A DNA stretch of 64,000 bases. Origin: Planctomycetota bacterium (GTDB lineage: Bacteria; Planctomycetota; SZUA-567; JAKLDR01). A program made the translations under genes and the position numbers. Of the stretch, positions 1 to 24,422 are shown one piece after another (positions within the stretch are counted from its first letter, which is position 1; each line of letters opens with the position of its first letter). The notes beneath the pieces were generated by a model that was not told where the DNA came from, ran no database searches, and saw only the letters and a list, made by a program, of their open reading frames with translations. The stretch lies in assembly GCA_022703445.1 (NCBI GenBank), contig JAKLDR010000009.1, forward strand, positions 1 through 64,000. Reading direction: 5' to 3'.

Positions 1-339
1 CTGGCCGCCCTCTTCATCGCCTGCGGCCAGGACGCGGCCTGCGTCTCGGAGGCGGCGGTGGGCCTCACCCGGATGGACCTGACCGAGGGCGGCGACCTGT
101 ACGTTTCGGTGAAGCTGCCCAACCTGACCGTGGGCACGGTCGGCGGCGGCACGGCGCTGCCCACGGCCCGCGAGTGCCTGGAGATGCTCGGCTGCGCCGG
201 CGAGGGCCAGGCCCGCAAGTTCGCCGAGATCTGCGCGGCCACCGTGCTGGCCGGCGAGGTCTCGATCATCGGCTCGATGGCCGCCGGCGACTTCGCCCGG
301 GCGCACCGGGAGCACGGGAGGAAGGGGGCCGGCAGGTAG
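1..339 (+). CDS. Hydroxymethylglutaryl-CoA reductase, 3' end (partial)
   Basis: This is the C-terminal 112 codons of an HMG-CoA reductase, the mevalonate-pathway enzyme that reduces HMG-CoA to mevalonate with NAD(P)H. The fragment shows the catalytic GQD motif (Asp at codon 11), the glycine-rich cofactor segment VGTVGGGT, the conserved ECLEMLGC stretch and a late histidine (codon 102, in ARAHREHGR) in the position of the catalytic His. The motif order and spacing match class I enzymes. The 5' part lies outside the window. It sits just upstream of lipid-modifying genes on the same strand, which points to an isoprenoid-lipid context. Family assignment is firm; class I rather than class II is inferred from motif wording. 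Confidence 0.93.
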   Translation: MAALFIACGQDAACVSEAAVGLTRMDLTEGGDLYVSVKLPNLTVGTVGGGTALPTARECLEMLGCAGEGQARKFAEICAATVLAGEVSIIGSMAAGDFARAHREHGRKGAGR

Positions 340-345
340 CTGGGT

Positions 346-372
346 GGTCCGACGAGTCCGACCAGTCGGACC
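346..372. repeat. GTCCGAC inverted repeat after HMGR
   Basis: GGTCCGAC (346-353) pairs with GTCGGACC (365-372), and an inner perfect palindrome GTCCGAC-CA-GTCGGAC spans 356-371. No T-tract follows, so it is not a clear intrinsic terminator. It resembles the short members of the interspersed inverted repeats seen elsewhere in this window. Confidence 0.6.
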
Positions 373-429
373 CGTACGCCAATCCCGGAGCCGGCACCTT
401 TTCCCGCTGGAGCGCCCCGCCCCGCCGCC

Positions 430-435
430 TATAAT
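430..435 (+). promoter_or_regulatory. TATAAT -10 box, only 8 bases before the start codon
   Basis: A perfect TATAAT lies 8 bases before the ATG at 444. The -35 region is weak. No Shine-Dalgarno sequence can be fitted between it and the ATG, so if this box is used the DUF3419 mRNA would be leaderless or nearly so. This is inference from position only. Confidence 0.4.
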
Positions 436-443
436 CGCCATTC

Positions 444-1541
444 ATGCCCGAGCGCATCGAGGACCGCGCGCGGTTCGACCTGATCCGCTACGCGAACTGC
501 TGGGAGGACGCCGACGTCCTGTGCACGGCCCTGGAGCCCCGGCCGGGCCGGCGCGTGCTCTCCATAGCCTCGGGCGGAGACAACACCTTCAGCCTGGCCG
601 CCGGCGGGGCCGAGGTGGTCGCCGCCGACCTGAGCCCGGCGCAGCTGGCGCTCTGCGAGCTCAAGCGCGCCGCGCTGCGCTGGCTGGACCGCGAAGGGCT
701 GCTGGCCTTCCTGGGGGTCACGCGCTCCGAGCGGCGGGCCTCGGTCTACGCCGGGCTCCGCGAGGCGCTCCCCGCCTCCGCGCGCGACTACTGGGACGCG
801 CGGCCGGAGGTCGTCGCCGCCGGAGTGATCCGCGCCGGCAAGTTCGAGAACTACTTCCGGCTGTTCCGCACGCGGATCCTGCCCCTGATCCACGGGCGGC
901 GGGCAGTGGTCGCGCTGCTCGAGCCGCGCGACGGCGACGGCCGGCGCGCCTTCTACGACCGGACCTGGAACAACCTGCGCTGGCGGCTGCTCTTCCGGGT
1001 CTTCTTCAGCCGCCGGGTGATGGGGCGGTTCGGGCGCGATCCCGAATTCTTCCGCTACGTGGAGGGCTCGGTCTCGGACCGGATCCTCTCGCGCGCCGAG
1101 TACGCGCTGACCGCGCTGGCGACCCACGAGAACCCCTACCTGCAGTTCATCCTGAACGGCAACTACGGCCCGGCGCTGCCGCACTACCTCCGGCCGGAGC
1201 ACTCCGAGGCGGTCCGTGCGGGCCTTGACCGGATCACGTTCTTTCACGGGCCGGTCGAGGAGGCTGCCCGGCGGCACGGCGCCGGCGGCTTTGACGGCTT
1301 CAACCTCTCGGACATCTTCGAGTACCTGCCGCCGGACGTCTGCCGGGGCCTGTACGCGGCGCTCCTGGCCGCGGCCCGCCCCGGCGCGCGCCTAGCCTAT
1401 TGGAACATGCTCGCGCCCCGGAGCTGTCCGGATGAGTACGCCGCCCGGGTGCGGCCGCTGGCCGACCTGGCGGAACGGCTCTTCGCGCGGGACGCGGCCT
1501 TCTTCTACAGCCGGTTCGTCGTGGAGGAGGTCTCCGGGTGA
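444..1541 (+). CDS. DUF3419 / BtaA-like 3-amino-3-carboxypropyl transferase
   Basis: The 365-residue protein belongs to the DUF3419 family. Its characterised member BtaA transfers the 3-amino-3-carboxypropyl group of S-adenosylmethionine to diacylglycerol, the first step of betaine-lipid synthesis. A SAM-binding Rossmann motif is visible near residues 38-53 (SIASGGDNTFSLAA), and the family's C-terminal FNLSDIFEYLP motif is present around residue 290. The start is the ATG at 444; no ribosome binding site is visible. The next gene overlaps its stop by four bases, so the two are probably translated together. BtaB, the methylating partner, is not in the window, so the acceptor lipid may differ. 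Family is firm; substrate is inferred. Confidence 0.82.
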   Translation: MPERIEDRARFDLIRYANCWEDADVLCTALEPRPGRRVLSIASGGDNTFSLAAGGAEVVAADLSPAQLALCELKRAALRWLDREGLLAFLGVTRSERRASVYAGLREALPASARDYWDARPEVVAAGVIRAGKFENYFRLFRTRILPLIHGRRAVVALLEPRDGDGRRAFYDRTWNNLRWRLLFRVFFSRRVMGRFGRDPEFFRYVEGSVSDRILSRAEYALTALATHENPYLQFILNGNYGPALPHYLRPEHSEAVRAGLDRITFFHGPVEEAARRHGAGGFDGFNLSDIFEYLPPDVCRGLYAALLAAARPGARLAYWNMLAPRSCPDEYAARVRPLADLAERLFARDAAFFYSRFVVEEVSG

Positions 1542-2896
1542 ACTGGACCCGCGAGCTCCTCGGCGCCGGGGCGCTCGCCGGCATCTTCGCAGCGGTGCTC
1601 GGCGTTGCCGAGCTCTGGGCCCGCCGCGGACGGCCCAACCCGGAGTGGCCGAGGAAGCTGGTCCATCTGGGGGGCGGGCTGGGCTGCCTGGGATTCCCCT
1701 TCCTGGTGAGCTCGCCGTGGACCGTGCTGGTCATGGCCATGGGGCTGGCGGCGCTCTTCGCCGCCGGCCGGCGCTCCAACCGGCTGCGCGCCCTGCACAG
1801 CGTCGAGCGGCGCACGGCCGGGAGCGAGTTCTACCCTCTGGCCATCTTCCTGACCTACCTGCTGACCTACGGACGGCCCTGGATCTTCGTGGCGGCGGTG
1901 CTGACCCTCGCCGTCGCCGACGCCGGGGCGGCGTTGGTCGGCTCGCGCTGGGGCCGCGTCCGCTACCAGGTGGAGGACGAGGAGAAGAGCCTCGAGGGCT
2001 CCCTGGCCTTCCTGCTGATCGCCTTCCTGGCGCTTCTCGCTCCGGCGCTCCTGCTGGCCGGCCTCTCCTGGAAGGTCTGCGTCCTCTCCGCGCTGCTGGT
2101 CGCGGCGCTGGTCACCGGCTTCGAGGCCATCTCGCTGCACGGAGCCGACAACCTGTTCGTGCCGGTGGCGGTCTGCGTGACGTTCAGCAAGATCAGCTCC
2201 AAGCCCGTGGCGGAGATAGCCTACCAGAACGTCAGCCTCGCCGGGATCGCCGCCGGGCTCGCGCTCCTGGCCTGGCGGACCCGGGTCCTCAACTTCGGCG
2301 CCCGGATTGTCTTCCTGCTCTACGCCTACGGCGCCTGGTCGCTGGGTTCCTGGCAGTGGGCGCTGCCGGTCTTCGTGGGGCTGGCCGCCTACCTGCTGCT
2401 GGAGGCCGTCAGCCCGCTGCCCCCGGAGAGGGTCCGCCTGGTCCGCGTCAAGACGATGAGCGCGGTGCTCCTGCCGCCCTTCCTGGTGCTGGTGCTGGCC
2501 AACTCGCGCGACGAGTACGCGCGGTTCTTCGGCCCCTACCTGGCGGCCAGCGCCGCCGTGCTGGGCATGGCGCTCTGGGCCTACCTGCGGCACCGGCATC
2601 CCCGGGCGGCCGGCCGGCGCCTGGCCGGGGCGGCGGGCATGGCGATCCTGGGAGTCGCGGCGGTGCTCGGCCCGCTCTGGTGGACGCAGGGGCTCCCGCC
2701 GCTGACGCTGGCGGCCGCCGCCGGTCCCGGCATACTGGCCGCCCTGGGCGGCGCGCTCGGCGGCGAGATCCGCCGGGGGCGGCCCGATGCCCCGGCCTGG
2801 GGCGCCGAGAAGATGCTCCTGCCGCTGGCCGCCGCCGGCGCGGTGCTCTGGATGCAGGAGGCGGGGATGGTCAAGCTCTGGGCGCCGACGGGGTAG
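1538..2896 (+). CDS. Phytol/dolichol kinase-like integral membrane protein
   Basis: The 452-residue polytopic membrane protein starts at GTG 1538, overlapping the previous stop. The N-terminal half carries the hallmarks of the phytol kinase/dolichol kinase/phosphatidate cytidylyltransferase superfamily: RKLVHLGGG near residue 39, DAGAALVGSRWGR near residue 127 and a following KSLEGS block. These CTP-dependent enzymes phosphorylate prenyl alcohols or make CDP-lipids. The usual single-domain kinase is about 200-300 residues; here some 200 extra residues of further membrane helices follow. With HMG-CoA reductase and a UbiA enzyme nearby, a role in activating a prenyl alcohol is likely. Family is good; substrate unknown. 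Confidence 0.78.
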   Translation: MNWTRELLGAGALAGIFAAVLGVAELWARRGRPNPEWPRKLVHLGGGLGCLGFPFLVSSPWTVLVMAMGLAALFAAGRRSNRLRALHSVERRTAGSEFYPLAIFLTYLLTYGRPWIFVAAVLTLAVADAGAALVGSRWGRVRYQVEDEEKSLEGSLAFLLIAFLALLAPALLLAGLSWKVCVLSALLVAALVTGFEAISLHGADNLFVPVAVCVTFSKISSKPVAEIAYQNVSLAGIAAGLALLAWRTRVLNFGARIVFLLYAYGAWSLGSWQWALPVFVGLAAYLLLEAVSPLPPERVRLVRVKTMSAVLLPPFLVLVLANSRDEYARFFGPYLAASAAVLGMALWAYLRHRHPRAAGRRLAGAAGMAILGVAAVLGPLWWTQGLPPLTLAAAAGPGILAALGGALGGEIRRGRPDAPAWGAEKMLLPLAAAGAVLWMQEAGMVKLWAPTG

Positions 2897-2941
2897 ATGT
2901 TACCCGCGGACGACAAGGGGCAACCGAGTTCGGCAGCGGTA

Positions 2942-3175
2942 TTAGATTACTACCAGATACCCGGCCTTTACCAGTTGGCGAAGAGACTCTTCCCAGTCCA
3001 TATCGTCGGGAATCATCCCGGACATCGCATAACCACCCTTGGGGTCCGGCTTTGGTTCCATCTCCCAATGAATCTGGAGAAGTTTCTCGACTATGACTTT
3101 GACTGAGTGGAGCTGAACCTCGATTGGATCATTAGATGGAAGATCCTCAATCAGTCTAAGGTAGATCCGCTTCAT
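2942..3175 (-). CDS. Small hypothetical protein in a low-GC island
   Basis: A 77-residue reading frame runs on the minus strand in a patch (about 2900-3380) clearly less GC-rich than its neighbours. It encodes an acidic, helix-prone protein beginning MKRIYLRLIEDLPSNDP and containing GGYAMSGMIPDDMDWEESL. The composition looks like real protein rather than a shadow of GC-rich genes. An alternative TTG start at 3283 would add 36 residues; ATG 3175 is preferred because a purine-rich GAGGG precedes it. No family is recognised. The unusual base composition and isolation between two plus-strand operons suggest recent acquisition. Moderate-to-low certainty. Confidence 0.45.
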   Translation of the reverse strand: MKRIYLRLIEDLPSNDPIEVQLHSVKVIVEKLLQIHWEMEPKPDPKGGYAMSGMIPDDMDWEESLRQLVKAGYLVVI

Positions 3176-3383
3176 GGACGCCCTCGGCTGTACCTCTAGC
3201 AGAGCCAGGCTCTCCTCCGGGCCAAGACGGCTACAGCCCACCAATCGCTTCCAGCTTGTAGCAGTGGGGATGCCGCAAGTCAAGGCTCATCGTTTCGGCA
3301 TCCTTGACATCGCAGAGAGACCGCTATCTAATGCCGTCTGCCTCGCGGGTGGTAGCCGCAGTCGCAAAGGAGGCTCAAGACCT

Positions 3384-5066
3384 GTGAACACGTCAGTGAT
3401 CGGCTGCCAGAACGGCGCCTCCGAGCACAACAACGTCATCGCCTTCCTGGAGGCCCACCGGCGGGAGATCCCCGACCGGGTCGCGCTCATGTGGCTGCGC
3501 TCGGCCGAGGCCTGGCGGCGCGACCCGTCGAGCGCGCTCGTCCACGAGCAGATGACCTACGGCGCCCTCGCCGAACGCGTCGAGTCCGCCGCCGCCGGGC
3601 TCGCGCGGTTGGGCCTGGCCTTCGGCGACCGGGCTTTCGTCTTCGTGCCCATGTCGCCGGAGCTCTACGTGGCCATGTTCGCGGTGCAGCGGCTCGGGGC
3701 CATCGCTGTGTTCCTCGACTCCTGGGCGCGGCGCGACCAGCTGGGCCTGTGCGCCAAGCAGGTCGAGCCCAGGGCCTTCATCGGGCCCGAGCCGGCCTTC
3801 GCTCTCATCAAGGGCGTGCCTGAGCTTGAGGCCGCGCCGGTCCGCATCGTGGTCGGCCCGCACGCCGGGATGTACTCTGCCGAGCTCGGAGCGCTCGCTG
3901 CCGCCGGCGGGCGCGTCCCGGTCGCGCCGGTCGAGCGCGAGCACACCGCGCTCGTGACCTTCACGACGGGCAGCTCCGGGATGCCCAAGGGCGCCAACCG
4001 CACCCACCGGTTCCTGGCCGCCCAGCACCGGGCGCTCGACCGCTGCCTGCCCTACGGGCCCGGGGACGTGGACCTGCCCGTCTTCCCGATCTTCTCGCTC
4101 AACAACATCGCCGGCGGAGTGACCACGGTCCTGCCGGCGGTGGACCTGGCCCGGCCCGACTCCTCCGACGGCGCCTTGCTTGCCGCCCAGATCCGGGCGA
4201 CCGGCGCGACCTGCTGCACGCTCTCCCCCTCGCTGCTCCGCGGCGTCTCGGCGGCGGCCGGCCGGCCCGGCGCCGAGCTCCGGGGGCTGCGCCGCGCCGC
4301 CACCGGCGGCGCGCCGGTGACCACCGACGATGTGATCGCGCTCGCGGCCGCGGCGCCGACGGCCGAACTGCACATCCTCTACGGCTCGACCGAGGTCGAG
4401 CCCATCGCGCACCTCGTCGCCTCGGAGATGCCGCCGGGCTCGGAGGACGCCGAGGGCGTCTGCGTGGGCCGGCTGGCCCACGGACTCGACGCCAGACTGC
4501 TGCGCCTTGAGCGCGGGCCTGTGGCGCTCGGCCCCAAGGGCTGGGCCGAGTGGGAGGCGCCAACCGGTGGCTTCGGCGAGCTGGTGGTGGCCGGCGACCA
4601 CGTCTGCCGCGACTACTACCGCAGCCCCGAGGCCTTCCGCGCTGCCAAGATCCTCGACGCCGATGGGCGCGTGTGGCACCGCACGGGCGACGTCTGCCGC
4701 TTCGACGCCGCCGGGCGCCTGTGGGTCGGGGGCCGGGTGCACAACGCCATCTGCCGCGCCGGCCAGACGCTGCTGCCGGTGCGCCCGGAGTTCCTGATGA
4801 AGCGGCTGCCCTTCGTCCGGGACGCCGCCTACCTCGGCCTGCCCGACGCCAAGCTCGGCGAGCGCGCCGCCGCGGCATTCTCGCTGAGGCCCGGCCCGGC
4901 CCCCGCCGATCCGGCCGGCGAGGTCCGCGGGGCACTTGCCGCCGCCGGTGTGGTCTGCGACGAGGCCGTCCAACTGGAGGCGATCCCCCTCGACCCGCGC
5001 CATCACAGCAAGGTCGAGTACGCCAGGCTGCGGGAGCAGATCCTGTCCGTGAAGGGGGAGCGCTGA
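3384..5066 (+). CDS. AMP-dependent synthetase/ligase (ANL family)
   Basis: This 560-residue adenylate-forming enzyme activates a carboxylic acid as an acyl-AMP. The GTG at 3384 is chosen because AAAGGAGG precedes it by about ten bases and the region upstream does not read as protein. The A3 phosphate-binding motif TTGSSGMPKG is near residues 194-203, the A5-like YGSTEVEP near 333, HRTGDVC near 434 and the A10 lysine in HHSKVEY near 544. No carrier-protein domain is attached. It opens a compact operon (UbiA prenyltransferase, PEP-type phosphohistidine enzyme, formyltransferase) and probably supplies an activated acyl group to that pathway. The acyl substrate cannot be told; fatty-acyl-CoA or OleC-like ligase are alternatives. 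Confidence 0.87.
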   Translation: MNTSVIGCQNGASEHNNVIAFLEAHRREIPDRVALMWLRSAEAWRRDPSSALVHEQMTYGALAERVESAAAGLARLGLAFGDRAFVFVPMSPELYVAMFAVQRLGAIAVFLDSWARRDQLGLCAKQVEPRAFIGPEPAFALIKGVPELEAAPVRIVVGPHAGMYSAELGALAAAGGRVPVAPVEREHTALVTFTTGSSGMPKGANRTHRFLAAQHRALDRCLPYGPGDVDLPVFPIFSLNNIAGGVTTVLPAVDLARPDSSDGALLAAQIRATGATCCTLSPSLLRGVSAAAGRPGAELRGLRRAATGGAPVTTDDVIALAAAAPTAELHILYGSTEVEPIAHLVASEMPPGSEDAEGVCVGRLAHGLDARLLRLERGPVALGPKGWAEWEAPTGGFGELVVAGDHVCRDYYRSPEAFRAAKILDADGRVWHRTGDVCRFDAAGRLWVGGRVHNAICRAGQTLLPVRPEFLMKRLPFVRDAAYLGLPDAKLGERAAAAFSLRPGPAPADPAGEVRGALAAAGVVCDEAVQLEAIPLDPRHHSKVEYARLREQILSVKGER

Positions 5067-5070
5067 GCGC

Positions 5071-5997
5071 ATGGCCGAGGCCCCTCCTCCCTTCCTCTCC
5101 CGCTGGGCGACCTTCGTCGCCGAGCGCTTCCCGCTCGGGAGCCACCTGGCCATGGCCGGAGCCTTCTTCGCGGGGAACGCCGCCGCGGCCGTCGAGCTGG
5201 CCGGGGCGGAGCTGAGGCCGCTGCCGGCGGTCCTCGGCGCTCTGGCCACACTGCTCATCTTCCTGCGCCTGCGGATCTTCGACGAGATCAAGGACTGCCG
5301 GACCGACCGCGACGCCCACCCCGAGCGGCCGCTGGCCCGGGGGCTCATCTCCCCCCGGGAGGCCTGGCGCGTCGCGCTGCTCCTGGTCGGCGCCGAGCTC
5401 CTCCTGGCGCTGGGCTGCGGCCTGCCCGCCGCCGCGGCCTGGGGGGCGGTCTTCGGGTTCTCGCTGCTCATGTTCCGGGAGTTCTTCATCGGCGCGTGGC
5501 TCCGTCCGAAGATGGAGCTCTATGCCCTGGCGCACACGCTGGTGGCGGGCTGGATGGGGCTCTTGGTGGTTGCGGCGGTCGCGGGGCGCTTCCCCTGGGA
5601 GCTGCCCGTCCGGGCGTGGATCTTCCTCGTCGCCAACTGGGCGGTTTTCAACGTCTTCGAGTTCGCCCGGAAGACCTGGGCGCCGGAGGAGGAGCGCGCC
5701 GGCGTCGAGTCCTACTCCGGCCGGCTGCGGCCTGCGGGGGCGGCGGCGCTGGCCATGGGCCAGGTGCTGCCGGCGGTGGCTTTCGCCTGGCCACTCCTGG
5801 CCGGGAACGCGGGTCGCGCCGCGGGGCTCTGGGCCGCGGCGCTCATGGCGGCGGTCCCGGCGATCGCCGCGCTGCTCTACGTGCACAGCCCGGTCCGGGC
5901 CTGCGCCCGGCTCTACCGCGGGGCGATGACCCTCTTCATCGTCGGGTACTACGCGACGCTGGCGGCGATGGTCTGGGGCTGGAGGTTCGTGGCGTGA
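5071..5997 (+). CDS. UbiA-family prenyltransferase
   Basis: The 308-residue integral membrane protein has about eight hydrophobic segments. The first Asp-rich motif of UbiA enzymes is present as DEIKDCRTDRD followed by HPERPLARG (about residues 71-90), which binds Mg-prenyl diphosphate. UbiA enzymes attach a prenyl chain to an aromatic or lipid acceptor. The second conserved Asp motif is less clear. The gene begins five bases after the ligase stop and its own stop overlaps the next GTG. Position among ligase, phosphohistidine enzyme and formyltransferase argues for a dedicated prenylated metabolite or lipid rather than ubiquinone, menaquinone or heme A. Confidence 0.85.
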   Translation: MAEAPPPFLSRWATFVAERFPLGSHLAMAGAFFAGNAAAAVELAGAELRPLPAVLGALATLLIFLRLRIFDEIKDCRTDRDAHPERPLARGLISPREAWRVALLLVGAELLLALGCGLPAAAAWGAVFGFSLLMFREFFIGAWLRPKMELYALAHTLVAGWMGLLVVAAVAGRFPWELPVRAWIFLVANWAVFNVFEFARKTWAPEEERAGVESYSGRLRPAGAAALAMGQVLPAVAFAWPLLAGNAGRAAGLWAAALMAAVPAIAALLYVHSPVRACARLYRGAMTLFIVGYYATLAAMVWGWRFVA

Positions 5998-7772
5998 GCG
6001 CCGCGCCGCCCGCTCCGGCACCCGCGCCCCGGCGCCAGGTCTGGGATAACTCCAACATCAACGAGAGCTACCCGGGCATCACCCTGCCGCTCACCTATTC
6101 CTTCATTCAGCGGGCCTACCGCGCGGTCTACTGGCAGTTCTGCCAGGTGCTGGGCCTGTCCGAGCGGGAGATCCGCGGCCACCAGGACATGCTCGGGAAC
6201 ATGCTGGGGTGCCTTAACGGCCGCGTCTACTACAACCTGCTCAACTGGTACCGGCTGGTGGCGCTGCTGCCCGGCTTCCGCTTCAACAAGGGCTTCATGG
6301 AGGCCATGATGGGCCTGCGCCAGCCCGCCGACCTCGCCGGGCCGCCTCCGGCCGGCTGGGCGGCGAAGTATGGCCGCGAGCTTCCGCGCCTGGTCCGCAC
6401 CGGGCTGCGCGCCGTCTGGCTGCAGTGGACGCTGGAGCGCCGGATCCGCAACTTCCATCGCGAGTTCGACGCCGCCCACCGGAAGTTCGCGGCCCTGGAC
6501 TACGAGGGCATGCCGCCGGCCGAGGCGCTCGGGCACTACGGCGCCATGGAGCGCGAGATCCTCTGGCGCTGGAAGGCGCCGATCATCAACGACTTCTCGG
6601 CCATGGTCTTCTACGGAGCTCTGAAGAAGCTGACCGTGGCCTGGGGCGTCGACCCGGACGGCGGGCTCCAGAACGCGCTGGTCAGCCGCCAGGGGGCCAT
6701 CGAGAGCACCGCGGTGGCCGACGAGCTCCACGGCATCGCTGCGCTCATCGCCCGGGACGTGGAGCTCAGGGGCCGCTTCCTGGCCGCGCCGCCGGCCGAG
6801 GCCGTCGCGCTGCTCCGGGCGCCGGGCGCAGTCGGAGACGCCTTCGCCCAGTACCTCGAGCGCTACGGCGACCGCTGCATCGCCGAGCTCAAGCTCGAGT
6901 CGCGCTCGGCGCGGGACGACCCCAGCTTCTGCGTCGCGGTCCTTCAGAACTACCTGCGCGGCTCCTCCGTCGGGGCGGTCTCACCGGCCAGGACCGAGGG
7001 GCTCACGCCCGAGGCCGCCCGGGAGGAGCTCCGGCGGCGGCTCAGGGGGCATCCCTTCAGGCACTGGGCCTACCGCTGGGTGCTCTCGCGCGCAGCCCGG
7101 GCCATCCGCAACCGCGAGAACCAGCGGCTGGCCCGCACCCGGGCCTTCGCCGTCGTCCGGAGAATCTTCCGGTCGGTGGGCGCCGCGCTGGCGCGCGACG
7201 GGCGGATCGCGGCCGGCGAGGACGTCTTCTACCTGAGGGTGGAGGAGCTCGAAGCCGCCGTAGGCGACGGGGGCCGGGCGCTCGACTTGCGCGCGCTGGT
7301 CGGCCGCCGACGCGGGATCTACGAGCGCTTCCGCGCGCTCCCGCCGCTGCCCGACCACCTCGAGACCCCCGGGCTGGTCGGCGGGGAGGAACTGGTCGAG
7401 GTGCCCGGCTCGGCACCGGCGGCCGCGGCGACCGGCGTGCTCAAGGGCCTGGGCGCCTGCCCCGGCGTCCTCACTCGCCGTGCCGTGGTGCTGCTCGAGC
7501 CGGACACGAGCGTCCGACTGAACGGCGAGATCCTGGTCACCCGCCAGACCGACCCGGGCTGGGTGGTGCTCTTCCCGTCGATCAGCGGGCTGGTGGTCGA
7601 GCGCGGCAGCATGCTCTCGCACTCGGCCATCGTGGCCCGGGAGATGGGCATCCCCGCGGCCGTCGGCGTGCCCGGCGCGGTCTCGCGGATCCGCACCGGC
7701 GACCTGCTCCGGCTCGACGGCGCCAAGGGGACGGTCGAGATTCTCGAAGCAGGCGAAGGAGCGCGGCAGTGA
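5994..7772 (+). CDS. PEP-utilising phosphohistidine-domain protein lacking the ATP-grasp half
   Basis: The 592-residue protein starts at GTG 5994, overlapping the UbiA stop. Its C-terminus is a PEP-synthase/pyruvate phosphate dikinase mobile domain with the swivelling phosphohistidine in GSMLSHSAIVAREMGIPA (His about residue 543). The front (WDNSNINESYPG near residues 17-28, then a long helical region) resembles the middle substrate-binding part of rifampicin-phosphotransferase-type enzymes. The N-terminal PPDK_N ATP-grasp domain that normally phosphorylates the histidine is absent and is not encoded by a neighbour here. It may use a separate ATP-grasp protein in trans or catalyse a different reaction. 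Fold assignment is good; function is open. Confidence 0.78.
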   Translation: MSAAPPAPAPAPRRQVWDNSNINESYPGITLPLTYSFIQRAYRAVYWQFCQVLGLSEREIRGHQDMLGNMLGCLNGRVYYNLLNWYRLVALLPGFRFNKGFMEAMMGLRQPADLAGPPPAGWAAKYGRELPRLVRTGLRAVWLQWTLERRIRNFHREFDAAHRKFAALDYEGMPPAEALGHYGAMEREILWRWKAPIINDFSAMVFYGALKKLTVAWGVDPDGGLQNALVSRQGAIESTAVADELHGIAALIARDVELRGRFLAAPPAEAVALLRAPGAVGDAFAQYLERYGDRCIAELKLESRSARDDPSFCVAVLQNYLRGSSVGAVSPARTEGLTPEAAREELRRRLRGHPFRHWAYRWVLSRAARAIRNRENQRLARTRAFAVVRRIFRSVGAALARDGRIAAGEDVFYLRVEELEAAVGDGGRALDLRALVGRRRGIYERFRALPPLPDHLETPGLVGGEELVEVPGSAPAAAATGVLKGLGACPGVLTRRAVVLLEPDTSVRLNGEILVTRQTDPGWVVLFPSISGLVVERGSMLSHSAIVAREMGIPAAVGVPGAVSRIRTGDLLRLDGAKGTVEILEAGEGARQ

Positions 7773-8554
7773 AACTGGCGATCCTGTGTCAGGAGGAGCC
7801 CGTCTTCCTCGGGCCCTTCCTCCAGGGTGTGATCCGCCTGCACCCGGAGCGGATCGCCGCGGTCTTCCTGGCCGGGCGGCGCAGCGCCGGGGAGCCCGTG
7901 CGCACCGCGGGTCAGCGGCTCGAGTCCCTGCGCGCCCTCTGGCTGATCATGGAGCCGCGCGGTTTCCTCGGGTCGCTGGGGCTCCGGCTGCGCTCGCGAC
8001 TCCTGGGCGCGCGCGACCCGCGAAGCGTGGAGGGCCTGGCCCGCGGGCTGGGGCTGCCCGTCCACGCCGTCGGCGATCCGAACGGCCCGGAGTTCCACGA
8101 ACTGCTGCGGCGGGTTGCCCCCGACGCGGTGCTCAACCAGTCCGAGCGCCTGCTGCGGCGGGAGGTTCTGTCCATCCCGCGGCTGGGCTTCGTCAACCGC
8201 CACGCGTCGCTGCTGCCCGCCTGCCGTGGGCGGATGGCCGGGTTCCGCTCCCACGCCGCGGAGCCGCCCCGCTACGGTCTGACCATCCACGCCGTCGACG
8301 AGGGCGTGGACACCGGTCCGATCATTCTCCAGAGGGAGTTCGCCGACGTGGACCCGGCCTGGCCCTATCCGCGGGTGATGCGCCACCTGCTGGCCGGGGC
8401 GCCGGAGCTCTTCTGGAGCGCGATGGAGCGGCTGGAGAGCCCGGGGTTCGTTCCCGCGGCGCAGATCCCCGTGGACGAGCCGTTCAGGTTCCCGACGCTG
8501 AGCGAGGCGAGGAACTACCGGCGGGTGCTGGCCGGGCGGCGCGGGGCCCGGTAG
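7769..8554 (+). CDS. Formyltransferase family protein (Fmt/PurN fold)
   Basis: The 261-residue protein starts at GTG 7769, overlapping the preceding stop by four bases. It carries the formyl-transferase N-domain signature: an Asn-x-His pair followed by SLLPACRGRMAGF (about residues 142-160), and IHAVDEGVDTGPI further on, where the Asp is catalytic. Such enzymes transfer a formyl group from 10-formyltetrahydrofolate to an amino or hydroxyl group. It lacks the tRNA-binding C-domain of methionyl-tRNA formyltransferase and sits last in a biosynthetic operon, so a small molecule or aminosugar-like acceptor is likely. The residue before the motif, ACRGR instead of the usual RYRG, is a small deviation. 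Confidence 0.85.
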   Translation: MKLAILCQEEPVFLGPFLQGVIRLHPERIAAVFLAGRRSAGEPVRTAGQRLESLRALWLIMEPRGFLGSLGLRLRSRLLGARDPRSVEGLARGLGLPVHAVGDPNGPEFHELLRRVAPDAVLNQSERLLRREVLSIPRLGFVNRHASLLPACRGRMAGFRSHAAEPPRYGLTIHAVDEGVDTGPIILQREFADVDPAWPYPRVMRHLLAGAPELFWSAMERLESPGFVPAAQIPVDEPFRFPTLSEARNYRRVLAGRRGAR

Positions 8555-8560
8555 CGGCCG

Positions 8561-11500
8561 TCAGCGCCGGTCCGCATAGCGCGGCGGGACGGCTGCCGGC
8601 AGCTTGATCTCGAGATTGGCGAACCAGCTGCCGTTGCGTTCCCGGACGCTGGCGTAGGCCTTCTGCTCCCTGGCTCCCAGGACCACCGTGAACGGCTCGG
8701 CCAGCAGTGACTTGCCGGTGGGCACGTCCTCGAGCAGGACACGCTGGCGCCCGACGCCGGGCACCGACAGGTAGATCTCCAGATCGGTCAGGTTCCGGCG
8801 GGGCTCGATGCCCTCCTTGACGCCGGCCGCGATCTGAACCCGGGCGGTCCGGCCGCTCTCGTCGGGCACAGGGGGGACGCACTCCATGCTCAGCATGGAC
8901 TCGTAGCGCAGCGTGCGGGTGATGGTGAACGTCTCACGGCCGTCCTTGACCATCAGGTAGAGATCGGCGACCGCCTCCTTGTCGCCGGTGGTTTCCACGA
9001 AGCTCGGGCGGACGCTGAAGGTCACCTTGGCGGTTTCGCCGGGGCGAACGTCGACCTTCTGGAAGCGCGGGGTGACCGCCGAGCCCTGCGGGAAGCGCGG
9101 GAAGATCCGGGCGGAGAGGTCCTGCCGGAAGTGGTTCTGCAGCTCGAAGACCACGGGCTGGGGTTCGTAGCGGCACTGCACCTTGCTGCCCGCGGCCAGC
9201 TGGAAGCTCTGCCTGGTCCGGATGAAGGCCGGATCCATCCCGGTGAGGATGGCGGGCACGACGGCCAGCGGGACCATCTCGGCCTCGGCCAGCCCGGCGG
9301 ACTCCGCGGCGGTTCGCGCGGGGCGGAGTTCCCTGGCGTACCCGGTGATCTCCACCAGCCGGGCCCGCCCACGGGTGCCCAGCTGCACCGGGATCTCGCG
9401 CTCGGGGCCGTCCGCCCAGAAGACCACCAGGCCCTCGTCCCCGCGCCGGAAGGCCCAGGCGCGGACGTCGGCATCCTTGCACAGGTCGAAGTCTCCGAGG
9501 AACTCCGCGCCGGACAGGTGCTGTCCCAGGGTCCGCCAGGCCGCCGCGGCCGGCCGGGGATTGAGGCCCGGGCCCATCAGCCCCTGCTTGGAATCGGACA
9601 GACTGACGAAGCAGCGCCCAGCGCCCGCGGCGACGAGCAGCGTGGCCTTCCTGGCCAGCTCCGTGACCTGGTCGCGCTCCTCCTTCATGCCCAGCCCCAG
9701 GTTCTCGCTGGCGGCCGGGAGCTCCAGGTGCCAATCGAAGGCCCCGGCCCTGGCTGCCGCCGCGCCGCCGGCCGGCGCCGGCCGGGGGAAGAGCGCGGCC
9801 AGCCTCTTCTCCAGCTGGGCGGGGCTCAGCGACGCGGGCACGAAGACCGTCTCGCGGTAGCGCTCATCCCCGTCGGCGCCGGGTTCCAGGCCATCCAGCG
9901 CGACCGGCACGTTGACGGTCTTGTGGGCGGCCTTCTCGAGAGCCCCGGAGCGGATCTCCGCGGCCAGCTTCGCGCGCCACTCGCGGCCGCCGGCCGCGGC
10001 CAGGTTGCCGTCGGCGGAGGCCAGGCGCCAGGCCATCATGTCCGAGCGGAACTCGGCTATGGCTTCGGGCTGCAGCTTCGCCCGCGGATCGGCGGAGGAG
10101 TAGGCGGCGACCGCTTCGCGGCCGGACAGGAGCACGCCCTCGAAGAGCACTTTCCTGCCGAGGGGGCCGCGCAGCAGCCTGGCCAGCGCAACCTCGGACG
10201 GGACCTGCGGGCCGGCCGCCGGCTTGGCCGCGCCCCAGAGGTTCACGGCGACCGTGGGAATGTTCAGGCGTCCGACGGCCTCCAGCAGCTGCCGGGCGTC
10301 CGTGCCGTGGAGCCCGGCTTCGACTCCGAAGCCGCCGATGCCCGCGGGTTCGACCGCAGCGGCGCCGGGCGAGGAGGCCGGCGCCGGCGCAGCTGCCAGC
10401 TTGACCAGCCGCAGCACGCGCCGGGTGATCTCGGTGCGCTCGCCGCGCGGGCCGATGGAGGACAGGGTGATCTCGACGGCGTAGGTGCCGGGGCGCGCCA
10501 GGGCGTCCAGGCGCAGGTCCTCCTGGAGGGCGCCGTCCTGGACCTCGCGCATGGCGAACTGCCGGTCCGCCACCGAAATCCTGCGGCCGAAGAGGTCCAC
10601 CACCGCGACGCTGCGCACGTAGCCTGCCCCCGCGGCCAGGCCGAGGACCCGCCCCAGCGCCGCGGGAACCGCCCCGGGCTGCGGGGCCGGCTGGGGGCGG
10701 AGACCGGTGAAGCTGATCTTGAGGGCCGGGATCTCGTCCGGGGCGAATATCCCCGAACAGCCATCCGGGACCGGCTTGGCGTCCACCTTGGGCCGGGCCA
10801 GGAGCTCGATGTCGTCGAAGCTGACCCAGCCGAGCGGGTCGTGCCCGGAAGCCTTGCACCAGACCTGGGCGAAGCGTGCGCGGCCATCGACGTCGTTGAC
10901 GCGCAGCCCGGGCACCTGCGTCCAGGAAGGACCGGACCGGGACGCGATCACGTGGTCGGACCAGCTGCTGGCGATGACGCGGCCCTGTTCGTCGAGCCAC
11001 TCGATGCCCAGCCGGGCCCAGCTCTCGTCCGGGCGGCGCGTGGACTGCATCCGGACCCAGCCGCTGAGCTCGTAGGCCGAGTCGGGATCGATCTCCAGCG
11101 GGATGCGGCGTTTCACGGCCACCAGGTCCATGCCCTGGCTCTCGTCGCTGCCCCGGCTGCCGGCCAGGCTCATGCGCAGCGCCCGGCGGCCGCCGTGGAC
11201 GGCGTCCGGCGGAGTGCCCGGAACGTCCAGGTCGGCGACGCCCACGGTCAGGAAGTCGGGATACCGCCCGTAGAGGCGCCGGGTGGGATCGTCCGCCGAG
11301 GGCGAGTCGTCGAGGTGCCGCTGCCACTCGCGGGGCAGCGGGGCCTTGCCGGGTTCGATGGCGCTGGATTCCTCGAATCCGAAGCGGGTGACTTCCTTCT
11401 GCATACGCCGGATGAACGCCCGGGCCTCCGCGCCGTCGTCCTCCTGGCCGGCCGGAGCGGTGGCGGCGTCGGCGGACGGTGCCGGCTCGAGCGAAAGGGC

Positions 11501-11566
11501 CGCAGGCGGCCAGAGCGACGCGGCGGCCAGCAGCATCCAGGCGATGAGACGGCTCTTCTCGGACAA
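8561..11566 (-). CDS. Large secreted protein of unknown function
   Basis: About 1001 residues are read from a TTG start at 11566, placed because a G-rich ribosome site precedes it and a clean signal peptide follows (SEKSRLIAWMLLAAASLWPPAALS). A farther start at 11644 would add a non-signal extension. The N-terminal third contains a carbohydrate-binding-module-like beta-sandwich (YELSGWVRMQST ... GWVSFDDIEL). The middle has alternating helices and strands suggestive of a TIM-barrel-like region, and the C-terminal third looks like two immunoglobulin-like domains. No catalytic signature was identified. It is convergent with the formyltransferase gene and ends six bases after it. A glycan-related envelope or extracellular role is only a guess. 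Confidence 0.7.
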   Translation of the reverse strand: MSEKSRLIAWMLLAAASLWPPAALSLEPAPSADAATAPAGQEDDGAEARAFIRRMQKEVTRFGFEESSAIEPGKAPLPREWQRHLDDSPSADDPTRRLYGRYPDFLTVGVADLDVPGTPPDAVHGGRRALRMSLAGSRGSDESQGMDLVAVKRRIPLEIDPDSAYELSGWVRMQSTRRPDESWARLGIEWLDEQGRVIASSWSDHVIASRSGPSWTQVPGLRVNDVDGRARFAQVWCKASGHDPLGWVSFDDIELLARPKVDAKPVPDGCSGIFAPDEIPALKISFTGLRPQPAPQPGAVPAALGRVLGLAAGAGYVRSVAVVDLFGRRISVADRQFAMREVQDGALQEDLRLDALARPGTYAVEITLSSIGPRGERTEITRRVLRLVKLAAAPAPASSPGAAAVEPAGIGGFGVEAGLHGTDARQLLEAVGRLNIPTVAVNLWGAAKPAAGPQVPSEVALARLLRGPLGRKVLFEGVLLSGREAVAAYSSADPRAKLQPEAIAEFRSDMMAWRLASADGNLAAAGGREWRAKLAAEIRSGALEKAAHKTVNVPVALDGLEPGADGDERYRETVFVPASLSPAQLEKRLAALFPRPAPAGGAAAARAGAFDWHLELPAASENLGLGMKEERDQVTELARKATLLVAAGAGRCFVSLSDSKQGLMGPGLNPRPAAAAWRTLGQHLSGAEFLGDFDLCKDADVRAWAFRRGDEGLVVFWADGPEREIPVQLGTRGRARLVEITGYARELRPARTAAESAGLAEAEMVPLAVVPAILTGMDPAFIRTRQSFQLAAGSKVQCRYEPQPVVFELQNHFRQDLSARIFPRFPQGSAVTPRFQKVDVRPGETAKVTFSVRPSFVETTGDKEAVADLYLMVKDGRETFTITRTLRYESMLSMECVPPVPDESGRTARVQIAAGVKEGIEPRRNLTDLEIYLSVPGVGRQRVLLEDVPTGKSLLAEPFTVVLGAREQKAYASVRERNGSWFANLEIKLPAAVPPRYADRR

Positions 11567-11686
11567 GGCCCCCCCCGAACCGCCTGCGGCGGCCGAATTA
11601 CCTATATTTAATCGGCGCGTGGCTGGACTGGCTTGAGAGCGCACATGGGAGACCTGCTGGCCACCGCAGGGGCGAGGCTGCCGGGG

Positions 11687-11938
11687 TCAGTTCACGATCC
11701 AGGGGACGGAGCAGGGGGCTGGCCGTCCCCGGCCGGCGGAGAAGTCCCCGAAGGGCGCGCGCACCGGCCGTCGCCCGGGTGCGGCGGGCCGGCCGGAAGC
11801 GGCGGCGCGGGTGGTTCGGAGCCCCCGGGCCCGGCGGACCGCCGACCAGCACAGCCAGACCGCGGCGGCCAGCAGGAGCGTGGGCAGGCCCAGGAGCAGC
11901 TCCGGAATCGCCGGGATCGCGCTGAAGTGGGGATTCAT
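11687..11938 (-). CDS. Small single-pass membrane protein
   Basis: This 83-residue reading frame has its ATG overlapping the stop of the upstream FeeM-like gene (ATGA). It has a hydrophobic N-terminal segment (PELLLGLPTLLLAAAVWLCW, residues about 12-31) followed by a very Arg-rich tail. The tight coupling to the FeeM-like gene is the main argument that it is real; the basic tail could be a GC-rich artefact of an over-long frame. No family recognised. The hydrophobic N-terminus plus RR-rich stop-transfer pattern would put it in the inner membrane with the tail in the cytoplasm. Confidence 0.5.
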   Translation of the reverse strand: MNPHFSAIPAIPELLLGLPTLLLAAAVWLCWSAVRRARGLRTTRAAASGRPAAPGRRPVRAPFGDFSAGRGRPAPCSVPWIVN

Positions 11939-12840
11939 CGGGCGTCGGCCAGGCCGGGAGCCGTGGCCGCCTCCAGGTCGTAGGCCAGGTAGCAGTCCTG
12001 CAGGTGCAGGCGCTCGGCCGGAGTCACCCGGCCGAGGATGTCCGAGCGCTCGGCGAAAAAGTAGCGCAGGTCGGCCTCGGACAGCGGGGTGCGTTCGCGG
12101 CCCAGCCAGTCCAGGATGGCCGGCTCGTCGTCGCCCACGAAGAAGGCGTGGAGATTGGCGCGGCCGCTGCGCCCCCCGAAGGCCTGGCGGTAGAGCTCCT
12201 CGGCCCGCAGCAGATCCAGCCGCAGCGGCACGGCCTCGGCGCCGTTGACCGATCCGTAGGCCCGGGTCTCGCCGATGGGCTCGAAGAGCAGCAGCCGGCG
12301 GTAGTACTTCTCGTGGCGCGGATTCACGGTGATCACGAAGTCGGTGCAGCCGTCGAGGCGGCGGGCGGAGAGGTAGGCCAGCTTGAAGAGGTGCAGGAGC
12401 ATCTCCATGCCCTGCCGCTCCTCCACGCAGGCCACCAGCTTGGCGATCTCGCAGGGACGGCGGCCGGCCGCGCGCAGGGCGTCGAGCTCGCGCCGGTAGA
12501 GGTCGTCCATGGGCAGGCCCATGGGACTGTCCGGCACCATGGTCAGCGTGGCGGCGGCGGAGCCGTCCGCCTCCCTGGCGACGAAAGTCGTCGTGCCGGG
12601 CAGGGCATCCTGGGGAAGGATGCGCATCCTGGAGTCGGACGGAGCCATGTACCCCTTCTGCAGATACGCGCGATAAACCAGGCCCCAGGCCTCCTCCCGG
12701 CCGGCCCGGTCATTGGCGATGCCGATCTCGAAACGGTCGCTTTCGCCGAAGCGGTAGCGGTAGGTCTCCGGAGCGGCCTCGGTCTCGGCCTCGAGACGCT
12801 TGAGTATCTCGGTGAAGCGTATCCGCGGTGCCGACATCAT
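11935..12840 (-). CDS. FeeM-like N-acyl amino acid synthase, copy 1
   Basis: The 301-residue protein belongs to the FeeM/N-acyl amino acid synthase group, GNAT-fold acyltransferases structurally related to LuxI-type signal synthases. They join a fatty acyl chain from acyl carrier protein to an amino acid. Shared blocks with the copy at 21349-22278 are AWGLVYRAYLQKGYM, MRILPQDALP, TLTMVPDSPMGLPMD, CEIAKLV and FVITVNPRHEKYYRRLL. The start at 12840 (tandem ATG) follows a GAGGGAGGGCG ribosome site; an upstream in-frame start at 12876 is less likely. The gene is divergent from the sigma-54-type regulator at 13024 and is followed by an overlapping small membrane protein. The amino-acid substrate is unknown. 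Confidence 0.8.
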   Translation of the reverse strand: MMSAPRIRFTEILKRLEAETEAAPETYRYRFGESDRFEIGIANDRAGREEAWGLVYRAYLQKGYMAPSDSRMRILPQDALPGTTTFVAREADGSAAATLTMVPDSPMGLPMDDLYRRELDALRAAGRRPCEIAKLVACVEERQGMEMLLHLFKLAYLSARRLDGCTDFVITVNPRHEKYYRRLLLFEPIGETRAYGSVNGAEAVPLRLDLLRAEELYRQAFGGRSGRANLHAFFVGDDEPAILDWLGRERTPLSEADLRYFFAERSDILGRVTPAERLHLQDCYLAYDLEAATAPGLADAR

Positions 12841-12958
12841 GGAGGCGCCCTCCCTCTGTCTATGCGTGTGAAGCAAACGGCGTGCTCACTAGGCGATATT
12901 CACAACGCACCATGCTGCGATGGTTATGGATTAATGGCCAGGATGACATGAGTTCCGT

Positions 12959-13023: not shown

Positions 13024-15333
<2,310 letters not shown>

Positions 15334-21348: not shown

Positions 21349-22278
21349 TCACCCCTGCAGCTGTGTGTCCTCGTCGAGGTCGTAGTGCAGATAGCAGCCC
21401 TGCAGGTACATGCGCTGCTCGGCGGTCATCTCGCGGAGCAGGCTGGTGCGCTCCGCGAAGAAGTGGCGCAGGTCCGCCTCGGGCATGACGCGCCGCTCCC
21501 GGCGCAGCCAGGTCAGCAGCGCCGGCCGCTGGGCCTCGTCGAGGAAGTACGCGTAGAAGCTCCGCGCCGTCGGCTTGATGTCGGCCTTCTGGCGGTAGGT
21601 CGCCTCCGCGGCCAGCAGGTCCAGGCGCATGGGCACGGCCACCGCTCCCCGGACCGAGCCGTAGGTCCGCGGCTCGCCCAGCCGCTCGAAGCGCATCAGC
21701 CGGCGGTAGTACTTCTCGTGGTGCGGGTTGACGGTGATCACGAAGTCGGTGCAGCCCTCCAGGTACCGGGCGGTGATGTAGGCGATGCGGAAGAGGGCCA
21801 GCAGCAGTTCCACGTCGGGCTTGGCGTCTTCGCCTGTGCCGGCCTCGCCCATGACCAGCTTGGCGATCTCGCAGGGCTTGCGGCCCGGGCCCCGGAGCGT
21901 GTCCAGATCCCGGCGGTAGAGCGCGTCCATGGGCAGGCCCAGCGGGCTGTCCGGGACCACGGTGAGCGTGGCCGCCGGAGCCCAGTCGGGCGCCTGCTGG
22001 GCCAGGAAGGTGCTGACCTCCGGGAGCGCGTCCTGGGGCAGGATGCGCATGGCCAGCTCGGACTCGGTCATGTAGCCGCGCTCGAGGTACGAGCGGTAGA
22101 CCAGGCCCCAGGCGGCCGTGCGCAGCTCGCGGCTGTTGGCCACCAGGACCCTGAACCGCGGGTTGTCGCCCGGCGAGAACTCCGCCCCGCCGTGCGCGAG
22201 CTCGCGGCGGATCTCCCGGAGGAAGACGCTGGACTTGCTGGTGGGGCGGTGGGGTCCCATGGCAGAGGATATACGCAC
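21349..22278 (-). CDS. FeeM-like N-acyl amino acid synthase, copy 2
   Basis: A 309-residue paralogue of the synthase at 11935-12840, sharing AWGLVYRSYLERGYM, MRILPQDALP, TLTVVPDSPLGLPMD, CEIAKLV, FVITVNPHHEKYYRRLM, TYGSV and the C-terminal MYLQGCYLHYDLD. The start is uncertain: GTG 22278 gives the full frame, and ATG 22260 six codons later is equally possible; neither has a good ribosome site. It is divergent from the degenerate regulator at 22464. Product and substrate are inferred from the family only: fatty acyl carrier protein plus an amino acid gives an N-acyl amino acid. Confidence 0.8.
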   Translation of the reverse strand: MRISSAMGPHRPTSKSSVFLREIRRELAHGGAEFSPGDNPRFRVLVANSRELRTAAWGLVYRSYLERGYMTESELAMRILPQDALPEVSTFLAQQAPDWAPAATLTVVPDSPLGLPMDALYRRDLDTLRGPGRKPCEIAKLVMGEAGTGEDAKPDVELLLALFRIAYITARYLEGCTDFVITVNPHHEKYYRRLMRFERLGEPRTYGSVRGAVAVPMRLDLLAAEATYRQKADIKPTARSFYAYFLDEAQRPALLTWLRRERRVMPEADLRHFFAERTSLLREMTAEQRMYLQGCYLHYDLDEDTQLQG

Positions 22279-22463: not shown

Positions 22464-24422
22464 ATGTCCCAGGGATCCATGCCGATGCACCCGGTTGCCG
22501 CAGCCTTCGTGGCCAGCGACCGGCAGCTGAGCGAGATCCTCGAGGCGGTCCCCGAGCCGCGGGACAAGATGGTCCAGGCCATGCTCACCCTGCGCCAGTT
22601 CCTGGCCGACAAGTGCCCCTGGGAGGAAGCCCTGGACCGGGCCGAGTCGGTGCGCCTGGGCAACTTCGACCCGTGCCTGACCATCGTCTTCCTGGGACTG
22701 TGGGCGGTAGCCTCCCGCCGGGCGGGGCGCATCGGGGAGGTCGAGGCCCTGGCGCGCACCGCCGCGGCCTTGGTCAAGCCGGACATGCCGCCGGAGATCC
22801 GGTCGATGGCGGCCAACTCGGAGTGCATCGCCGCCTCGGTCCGCGGCGACTGGTTCCGGGAGGACCGGGCCATGCGCCAGATGGTGGCGATGCTCCCGGA
22901 GAGTTCGCCCCGCTACACCACCCAGCTGCTCGGGACCACCTCCTCGCTGGCCTACCGCTGGTCGGCCATGGAGTACGAGCCCCAGCTGACGGCCATCGCC
23001 GCCCGCGGCGGCCACTGGGCCAGCAGCGTGGCCTTCACCCGGCTCGTCCAGTACGCGGAGACCGGGAGGTTCGACGAGGCCCGGGCGCAGCTGCCGCTCC
23101 TGGCCGCCGACCCCAAGGTGGCGACCTACTACGCGGGGTACGCCTCCGGATACCGCCGCCTGCTGGAGGTCATGTCCGATCCTGCCGGAGCCGGCGCCGC
23201 CGAGCAGGACGTCACCTCCCTGCTGCTGGCCGGCCGGAAGCGGGATGCGCTGGACCTGGCGCGCCGCAACGCCCTGGGCGCCCCGCAGGTGGCGATCGTC
23301 GGACAGGGCTTCGGCGCGTTCAGCCTGATCCGCGCCGAGCTGGCCGCCGGCAACCGGGAGGCTGCGCTGCGGCTGTTGCGGCTCCGGGCCCAGCGTGGCA
23401 ACCTCCTGCCGATCAGTGACTTCTTCGCAGCGCGCGTGGAGCTGCTGGGCGGCAACCGCGGGCAGGCCCTGCGCCTGCTGCGCCTCGTGATCGAGGCGGT
23501 CGGACGCTACCGGGCCGTAGGCCGGCTTGAGGCCGAGCTGCGCCTGGCCCTGGAGGTGTCGGCCGCCGACGCCGCCATGCTCCGCGCCTGGTGCGAGGGG
23601 CGCCCACCGGAGGCCGGAGCGGCCGCCCCGGAGGTCGCCGCCGTGGCCGGCTCCGAGCCCGTCGGAGCGGCCCGGCTGATCGGCGTGAGCCAGCTGGTCG
23701 AGACCGTTCGCAGAGCCGTGGCCAGGCTGGCGGCCTTCCCGGCGCCGGTGCTGATCTGCGGCGAGCCGGGCTCCGGCAAGCGCATCGTGGCCCGGGCGCT
23801 GCACGAGTGCGGGCCGCGCGCGCGGTCGCCGTTCGTGGACGTCGGCTGCGGAGGGATCGCCGCGCCGCTGCTGGCGCAGGAGATCTTCGGCAAGGGCGTG
23901 GCCGGCCCGGGCGGGGGACCCCTCTACCGGGGCGCGATCTTCGAGGCCGGCGACGGCTCGGTGCTGCTCCGCGACGTGGACCGCCTGCCGCCGGAGGTGC
24001 AGGATGCGCTGCTCGCGGTCATCGAGACCGGCGAGGTGCCCGGCACGGACGGATCGCGTACGCGGAGGCCGAGCTGCCGGATCGTGGCCACCGCCTCGGT
24101 CGACCTGGCCGGGCTGGTCGAGGCCGGCCGGTTCAACGCCGGGCTCTTCGAGCGCCTGCGGCGCATGGCCATCGCCGTGCCCGCCCTGGCCGAGCGGCCC
24201 GAGGACGTGCCGGCGCTGGCCGAGCACTTCCTGGCCGCCGGGCGCAGCGACGGGAAGACCCCGAGCCTGTCGGACGCGCTCCGCGCCGAACTCGCGCGCC
24301 GCCCGTGGCCGGGCAGCGTCGCCGAACTCATGGAGTTCGTCGAGCGCATGCGCCTGGCCGGCTCCGAGAAGCTCGAGTACGATCTGCCCGACCTGCCCGC
24401 CTCCGCGGCGCCGCAGGCTTGA
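22464..24422 (+). CDS. Degenerate sigma-54-type AAA+/TPR regulator, lacking GAFTGA and HTH
   Basis: A 652-residue paralogue of the regulator at 13024 with a strong AGGAGGGG ribosome site. The TPR-like sensor is clearly homologous (GFGAFSLIRAELAAGNREAA versus GFDTFNLIRCELACGSGEAA). The AAA+ part keeps Walker A GEPGSGKR (433) and RPWPGSVAEL, but the sigma-54 loop GAFTGA is replaced by a Gly-rich segment (GKGVAGPGG) and Walker B reads LLRDVDRL with no acidic pair. The protein ends without any DNA-binding domain. It therefore probably cannot activate sigma-54 promoters directly and may act as a partner or antagonist of the intact paralogue. The frame is uninterrupted, so selection still holds it. 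Confidence 0.82.
   Translation: MSQGSMPMHPVAAAFVASDRQLSEILEAVPEPRDKMVQAMLTLRQFLADKCPWEEALDRAESVRLGNFDPCLTIVFLGLWAVASRRAGRIGEVEALARTAAALVKPDMPPEIRSMAANSECIAASVRGDWFREDRAMRQMVAMLPESSPRYTTQLLGTTSSLAYRWSAMEYEPQLTAIAARGGHWASSVAFTRLVQYAETGRFDEARAQLPLLAADPKVATYYAGYASGYRRLLEVMSDPAGAGAAEQDVTSLLLAGRKRDALDLARRNALGAPQVAIVGQGFGAFSLIRAELAAGNREAALRLLRLRAQRGNLLPISDFFAARVELLGGNRGQALRLLRLVIEAVGRYRAVGRLEAELRLALEVSAADAAMLRAWCEGRPPEAGAAAPEVAAVAGSEPVGAARLIGVSQLVETVRRAVARLAAFPAPVLICGEPGSGKRIVARALHECGPRARSPFVDVGCGGIAAPLLAQEIFGKGVAGPGGGPLYRGAIFEAGDGSVLLRDVDRLPPEVQDALLAVIETGEVPGTDGSRTRRPSCRIVATASVDLAGLVEAGRFNAGLFERLRRMAIAVPALAERPEDVPALAEHFLAAGRSDGKTPSLSDALRAELARRPWPGSVAELMEFVERMRLAGSEKLEYDLPDLPASAAPQA

Follow-up and report, generated by a model that had tools for sequence, protein, structure and literature searches.

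A seven-gene cluster with an altered HMG-CoA-reductase-like enzyme recurs across bacterial phyla and may encode synthesis of an undescribed envelope lipid

Introduction

Few enzymes have been studied as closely as HMG-CoA reductase (HMGR), and its presence is read as a sign of the mevalonate pathway. In the human enzyme, Ser684 and Lys735 are ligand-pocket residues that touch statin-type mimics of HMG (PMC3875450). Here, we analyze seven genes, the first of which encodes an HMGR-like protein, at positions 1–8554 of a 64,000-nucleotide stretch of planctomycete DNA (hereafter, the window), and compare them with described systems that use related enzymes. The DUF3419 family is that of BtaA and predicts the betaine lipid diacylglyceryl-trimethylhomoserine (DGTS) in algae (PMC6642084). 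Rifampin phosphotransferase (RPH) is built from a substrate-binding domain, an ATP-grasp domain, and a swivel domain with a phosphate-carrying histidine (PMC4844700), while VTE5 and VTE6, which salvage phytol and farnesol in plants, act by two successive phosphorylations (PMC9782597). The widely distributed ebo operon contains a UbiA-family gene, Ubi-297 (PMC9235831), as does the widespread cluster described here, but the EboC model reached only 21.3 bits against a cut-off of 250. Judged by sequence, the seven genes are a conserved unit shared across phyla, and no description of it was found in the open-access literature or in curated libraries; the Lipocone paper and the work on Ubi-297 and ebo describe other systems.

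Results

The first base of the window is also that of contig C304, which belongs to a planctomycete metagenome-assembled genome (MAG; G000, 81% complete, 4% contaminated). A sequence-only reading had listed seven genes on one strand as a candidate prenyl-lipid or meroterpenoid pathway, with the last four overlapping or nearly touching. Sequence analysis places all seven as it described, on the + strand, as HMGR–BtaA–DolK followed by LIG–UbiA–PEP–FMT. Its account of the junctions was exact: LIG and UbiA are separated by a 4-bp gap, and 4-bp overlaps occur at UbiA/PEP and PEP/FMT, as well as at BtaA/DolK.

1–339, + strand: HMGR, C-terminal 112 amino acids of a class I HMG-CoA-reductase-like protein with an altered HMG pocket (Pfam HMG-CoA_red, 2.8e-39)
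444–1541, + strand: BtaA-like S-adenosylmethionine (SAM) 3-amino-3-carboxypropyl transferase (Pfam DUF3419, 1.4e-60)
1538–2896, + strand: DolK, dolichol/phytol-kinase-like membrane protein with a predicted CdsA-type fold, putative CTP-dependent alcohol kinase (motifs, AF2/Foldseek)
3384–5066 (start codon approximate), + strand: LIG, acyl-adenylating ligase, nearest named models OleC-like (AMP-binding, 1e-45)
5071–5997, + strand: UbiA-superfamily prenyltransferase (Pfam, 1.7e-16; DExKDxxxD and ExARKxxxPxEE motifs)
5994–7772, + strand: PEP, rifampin-phosphotransferase-like phosphohistidine enzyme without ATP-grasp (PEP-utilizers, 3.3e-24)
7769–8554, + strand: FMT, formyltransferase (Formyl_trans_N) with Asn143-His145-Asp181 intact (Pfam, 5.3e-14)

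The contig start truncates HMGR; its N-terminal part lies at the end of contig C241, which shares a 36-bp overlap with the window and brings the protein to 428 amino acids. GC3 and base composition are even across the cluster and its surroundings. Because a gap of ~490 bp separates DolK from LIG, the gene set may comprise two transcripts. A small open reading frame without a family match (2942–3283, − strand) lies in this gap.

Recurrence of the cluster across phyla

A search of 392 genomes of the same phylum that used UbiA as its sole query revealed 11 carriers besides G000, the neighbourhoods of which contained LIG, PEP, HMGR, BtaA, DolK, or FMT in varied order, and five UbiA sequences run against 84,980 species returned 56 loci. 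Counts refer to the 42 loci in which UbiA is flanked by 4.5 kb or more on each side; given that these were picked by UbiA similarity alone, their neighbouring genes are unselected. LIG and PEP each accompanied UbiA in 40/42 loci and BtaA in 33/42, followed by a GNAT gene (24/42), an MMPL pump (17/42), FMT (14/42), DolK (11/42), and HMGR (7/42). None of BtaA, UbiA, DolK, or FMT was found in 20 unrelated control neighbourhoods (264 kb). Independent occurrence of the genes in relatives would have refuted the sequence-only reading; instead, they travel together across phyla.

Gene order is also conserved. The seven-gene order of the window occurs in two Omnitrophota loci, L069 and L068, the latter with an additional gene that separates DolK from LIG and with its HMGR completed in L126. 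Loci from Nitrospirota (L067), Omnitrophota (L071), and Armatimonadota (L076) follow the same order up to the end of the contig or cluster, and the first five or six genes are arranged as in the window on contigs of these three phyla. At least ten phyla carry the gene set, in the same order or rearranged, with loci in Omnitrophota, Nitrospirota, Armatimonadota, Planctomycetota, Bdellovibrio and relatives, Akkermansiaceae, Kiritimatiellae, Spirochaetes, Fibrobacter, Proteobacteria MAGs, Bacteroidetes, Balneolales, and others; cultured carriers include Bdellovibrio, Hymenobacter, and Pontibacter. The closest PEP and FMT (60% and 69%) belong to L119, which was not used as a model locus since its UbiA is incomplete. 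We consider it almost certain that the seven genes form one functional unit.

The setting of this unit is lipid metabolism. Genes of the phospholipid acyltransferase/lysophospholipid transporter (Aas-LplT) type precede HMGR in L069, L104, and L126, and a TMEM164-type acyltransferase is encoded in L080. The earlier proposal of a single undescribed pathway, probably for a lipid, thus holds up, as no characterised cluster was matched in the libraries or literature searched.

An HMGR clade with an altered HMG pocket

The identification of the first gene as HMGR holds at the level of the domain, although only the C-terminal piece lies in the window and the pocket is altered. Each of the 12 cluster HMGRs retained the catalytic Glu559, Lys691, Asp767, and His866 when aligned with the human and archaeal enzymes, and they share with class I HMGR (TIGR00533; human, archaeal 6hr7) the fold family as well as Arg590 and Asn755. 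In contrast, Ser684 was replaced by Glu in 12/12, Lys735 was gone in 12/12 (Met or Val), and the DAMGMNM motif was changed to DAAGQNM or close variants. Both pocket residues were retained in the class I controls L128, L130, and L131 and in the human and archaeal enzymes, so that a class I HMGR of the same phylum, encoded in a mevalonate operon (L128/L162), has an intact HMG pocket. The cluster HMGRs form one clade (support 100/99), and the six tested against TIGR00533 scored 308–364 bits, below the family cut-off of 441.8, while the mevalonate-operon control scored 469.8.

Genome context points in the same direction. In G000, 81% complete, HMG-CoA synthase (PF08540, PF01154) and mevalonate-PP decarboxylase (TIGR01240) had no match, and DXR of the methylerythritol phosphate (MEP) pathway was present. 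The other tested genomes with a cluster HMGR likewise gave no match to HMG-CoA synthase or mevalonate-PP decarboxylase, and nearly all contained DXR, for which G394 gave no match. In Bdellovibrio, where mevalonate-PP decarboxylase is present, the HMG-CoA synthase models likewise found nothing, and an absence of HMG-CoA synthase taken alone is weak evidence. Given the altered pocket, the single clade, the scores below cut-off, and the lack of a detected mevalonate pathway, the cluster HMGR very likely reduces an acyl-CoA other than HMG, as far as sequence can tell, and in all probability it is not a mevalonate enzyme. The prenyl-lipid or meroterpenoid logic that the sequence-only reading had drawn from HMGR fails for these reasons: a MEP genome without detected mevalonate genes, and an altered pocket for HMG. 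If our assignment is true, a bacterial HMGR branch outside the mevalonate pathway would mislead annotation and show how an acyl pocket can change.

Related altered HMGRs occur elsewhere. In L160:5346-9922 (G169:C6), genes for an acyltransferase, an alkyl-DHAP synthase (7e-137 to PDB 2uuu), and an SDR come after a sister HMGR with an altered pocket, all on one strand. The arrangement looks like an ether-lipid operon in which HMGR occupies the position of a fatty-acyl-CoA reductase. In L041:7140-12345 (G045:C57), HMGR is fused to an APH/EcKL-type kinase (768 amino acids) and adjoins a CarS-like CTP enzyme followed by a PEP dikinase; this HMGR has a DAAGQN motif and Asp in place of Ser684, and a Lys at 735 is kept in the alignment. 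Taken together, the two loci support a putative route from acyl-CoA to alcohol to alcohol phosphate. In L157:6475-9727 (G098:C296), a UbiB-like kinase gene adjoins another altered HMGR.

Kinase and amine-capping slots

DolK, which the sequence-only reading had called phytol-kinase-like, had no match in Pfam or NCBIfam; the assignment is based on its motif and predicted fold. The RKxxH / DxxAxxxGxxxG / EG / DN..P motif, which we take to be the mark of the dolichol/phytol kinase family (VTE5, COG0170), is invariant in 17 relatives. The AF2 model (pLDDT 84) suggests a CdsA-like fold, and CDP-DAG synthetase accounted for three of the top four Foldseek matches, with probabilities of 0.95–0.97 but E values of 0.1–0.2. 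We predict that DolK is a CTP-dependent alcohol kinase. Bacteroidetes loci have no DolK, and a soluble APH/EcKL-type kinase gene there overlaps or abuts BtaA. That two unrelated kinase types share one slot points to phosphorylation of an alcohol.

A second slot appears to be filled by either of two unrelated enzymes. Among the 42 loci, 14 had FMT, 24 had GNAT, and none had both (Fisher 6e-8, uncorrected for phylogeny), as if the two shared one place in the cluster. The Asn-His-Asp triad of FMT was invariant in 16/16 relatives. Known formyltransferases and GNATs act mostly on amines, and capping by either would fit the amine left by BtaA. Comparison of BtaA itself with solved structures gave chance-level matches only. 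BtaA and FMT/GNAT together point to an amine-bearing, capped head group. Such repeated swaps of kinase and amine-capping enzymes give strong hints on chemistry, even from genes alone.

PEP, LIG, and UbiA

The phosphohistidine enzyme was recognized correctly (PEP-utilizers, 3.3e-24), except that, unlike its relatives, it has no ATP-grasp domain. PEP consists of a substrate-binding domain and a swivel domain with His543, which is conserved and invariant in relatives, and over both domains its nearest structure is RPH (5hv1; Foldseek E 5e-18, TMq 0.68). Full-length PEP relatives share this architecture and also carry ATP-grasp, which was found in 40/42 loci; the window PEP has 19% identity to RPH and reached 133 bits against the NCBIfam RPH cut-off of 999. 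The absence of ATP-grasp in the window PEP looks like a real domain loss, because the gene begins in an ordinary 4-bp overlap with UbiA. In L034, L035, and L036, where UbiA and LIG are absent, a PEP-type enzyme lies beside a GNAT-like protein of ~365 amino acids; the two may be a separate recurring pair.

LIG has intact ANL motifs and scored below cut-off against NF006754 (340 bits) and the OleC model (233 bits). Fusions of OleB and OleC exist, and in Bdellovibrio bacteriovorus a resembling fusion joins LIG to an alpha/beta hydrolase, with FMT, UbiA, and PEP alongside (L085:6597-9005); some loci encode an alpha/beta hydrolase. However, an OleBC-type beta-lactone route was rejected, as LIG scored far below the cut-offs of the NCBIfam OleC models (232.7 and 166.7 bits versus 900 and 850) and no OleA- or OleD-type family recurred in the loci. 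UbiA has acidic motifs at both expected places in the alignment, and its closest solved relative is DGGGP synthase, a weak match; prenyl transfer is possible.

Discussion

We favor, on balance, a reading of the seven genes as one pathway for an amine-bearing envelope lipid. The detailed steps, listed here without a claim on their order, are put forward more tentatively, and we are inclined to doubt that all are right as proposed. The HMGR-like enzyme would reduce an acyl-CoA (fatty or 3-hydroxy acyl, not HMG) to a primary alcohol, which DolK, or APH in Bacteroidetes, would phosphorylate. The RPH-like PEP could place a further phosphoryl group, via its phosphohistidine, onto this lipid. With a diphosphate as donor, UbiA would transfer a prenyl or alkyl chain; BtaA would add the aminocarboxypropyl head group from SAM, and FMT or GNAT would formylate or acylate the amine. 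LIG may activate a carboxylic acid for coupling, and the MMPL pump, where present, may export the product. We would cautiously extend this reading, at a little short of an even chance, to a widespread undescribed class of envelope lipids in at least ten phyla, for which part of the carriers use the HMGR branch to reduce long-chain acyl-CoA in tandem with a lipid-alcohol kinase; the branch would also serve ether-lipid synthesis in other planctomycetes. The cluster predicts a seemingly undescribed lipid in Bdellovibrio, a model predator, and in bacteria common in soil and water.

Several observations weigh against this reading. Many loci with LIG, UbiA, PEP, and BtaA lack HMGR and DolK, and the latter two may therefore represent a side branch. 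In some cluster HMGRs, a K/Q/R residue beside the lost Lys735 could compensate for it. The activity of the window PEP is uncertain, given that the protein has no ATP-grasp domain and no free-standing ATP-grasp partner was found in the 81% complete G000; of the candidates, C67 and C170 are the two parts of a single ordinary PEP synthase, and C19 resembles PPDK. The mutual exclusion of FMT and GNAT partly tracks phylogeny. Finally, the product and enzyme activities of the pathway are putative, and the substrates of BtaA and UbiA are unconstrained by data.

Among the alternatives, prenol salvage resembling VTE5–VTE6 fares best, in which a prenyl alcohol would receive two phosphates from DolK and PEP, and UbiA would load the resulting diphosphate onto a quinone-like acceptor. 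The DolK motifs resemble those of VTE5 and dolichol kinase, a CTP-type fold is predicted for it, UbiA is present in all loci, and two phosphorylations in succession are how VTE5 and VTE6 act (PMC9782597). Yet the cluster is a larger set, in which BtaA, FMT/GNAT, HMGR, and MMPL would be left unexplained, most UbiA–PEP loci have no DolK, and no VTE6-like family recurs in the loci; we regard salvage as unlikely. A betaine-lipid pathway of the DGTS type, in which BtaA would make diacylglyceryl-homoserine and its neighbours would remodel it, seems slightly less probable again. It would accord with the shared DUF3419 SAM aminocarboxypropyl transferase family, a DGTS predictor in algae (PMC6642084), and with the phospholipid acyltransferase genes close by in some loci. 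However, the partners of BtaA in this cluster are UbiA, PEP, LIG, and a formyl- or acetyltransferase, and no candidate from the BtaB N-methyltransferase family recurred in the neighbourhoods, a genome-wide search not having been made.

In an ordinary isoprenoid or meroterpenoid cluster, HMGR would supply mevalonate for a prenyl diphosphate that UbiA attaches to an activated acid. HMGR and UbiA do share one cluster and the catalytic residues of HMGR are intact, but we judge this very improbable given the presence of the MEP pathway, the lack of matches to HMG-CoA synthase (weak by itself) and mevalonate-PP decarboxylase, and a pocket altered in 12/12 cluster members and kept by the mevalonate-operon HMGR of the same phylum. 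A chance line-up of unrelated same-strand genes, although the ~490-bp gap halves the set and HMGR, DolK, or BtaA is missing at some loci, has a vanishingly small probability, as it is contradicted by the identical order across phyla, the 40/42 association, and the empty control neighbourhoods.

Beyond the cluster, a gene for a 1027-amino-acid protein with no family match above cut-off adjoins it on the opposite strand (8561–11644, −). Three FeeM-type N-acyl amino acid synthase genes follow in the window (11935–12876, 21349–22260, and 25303–26550), near genes for sigma-54 activators, one confirmed by Pfam (22479–24422) and one similar by sequence (13024–15333).

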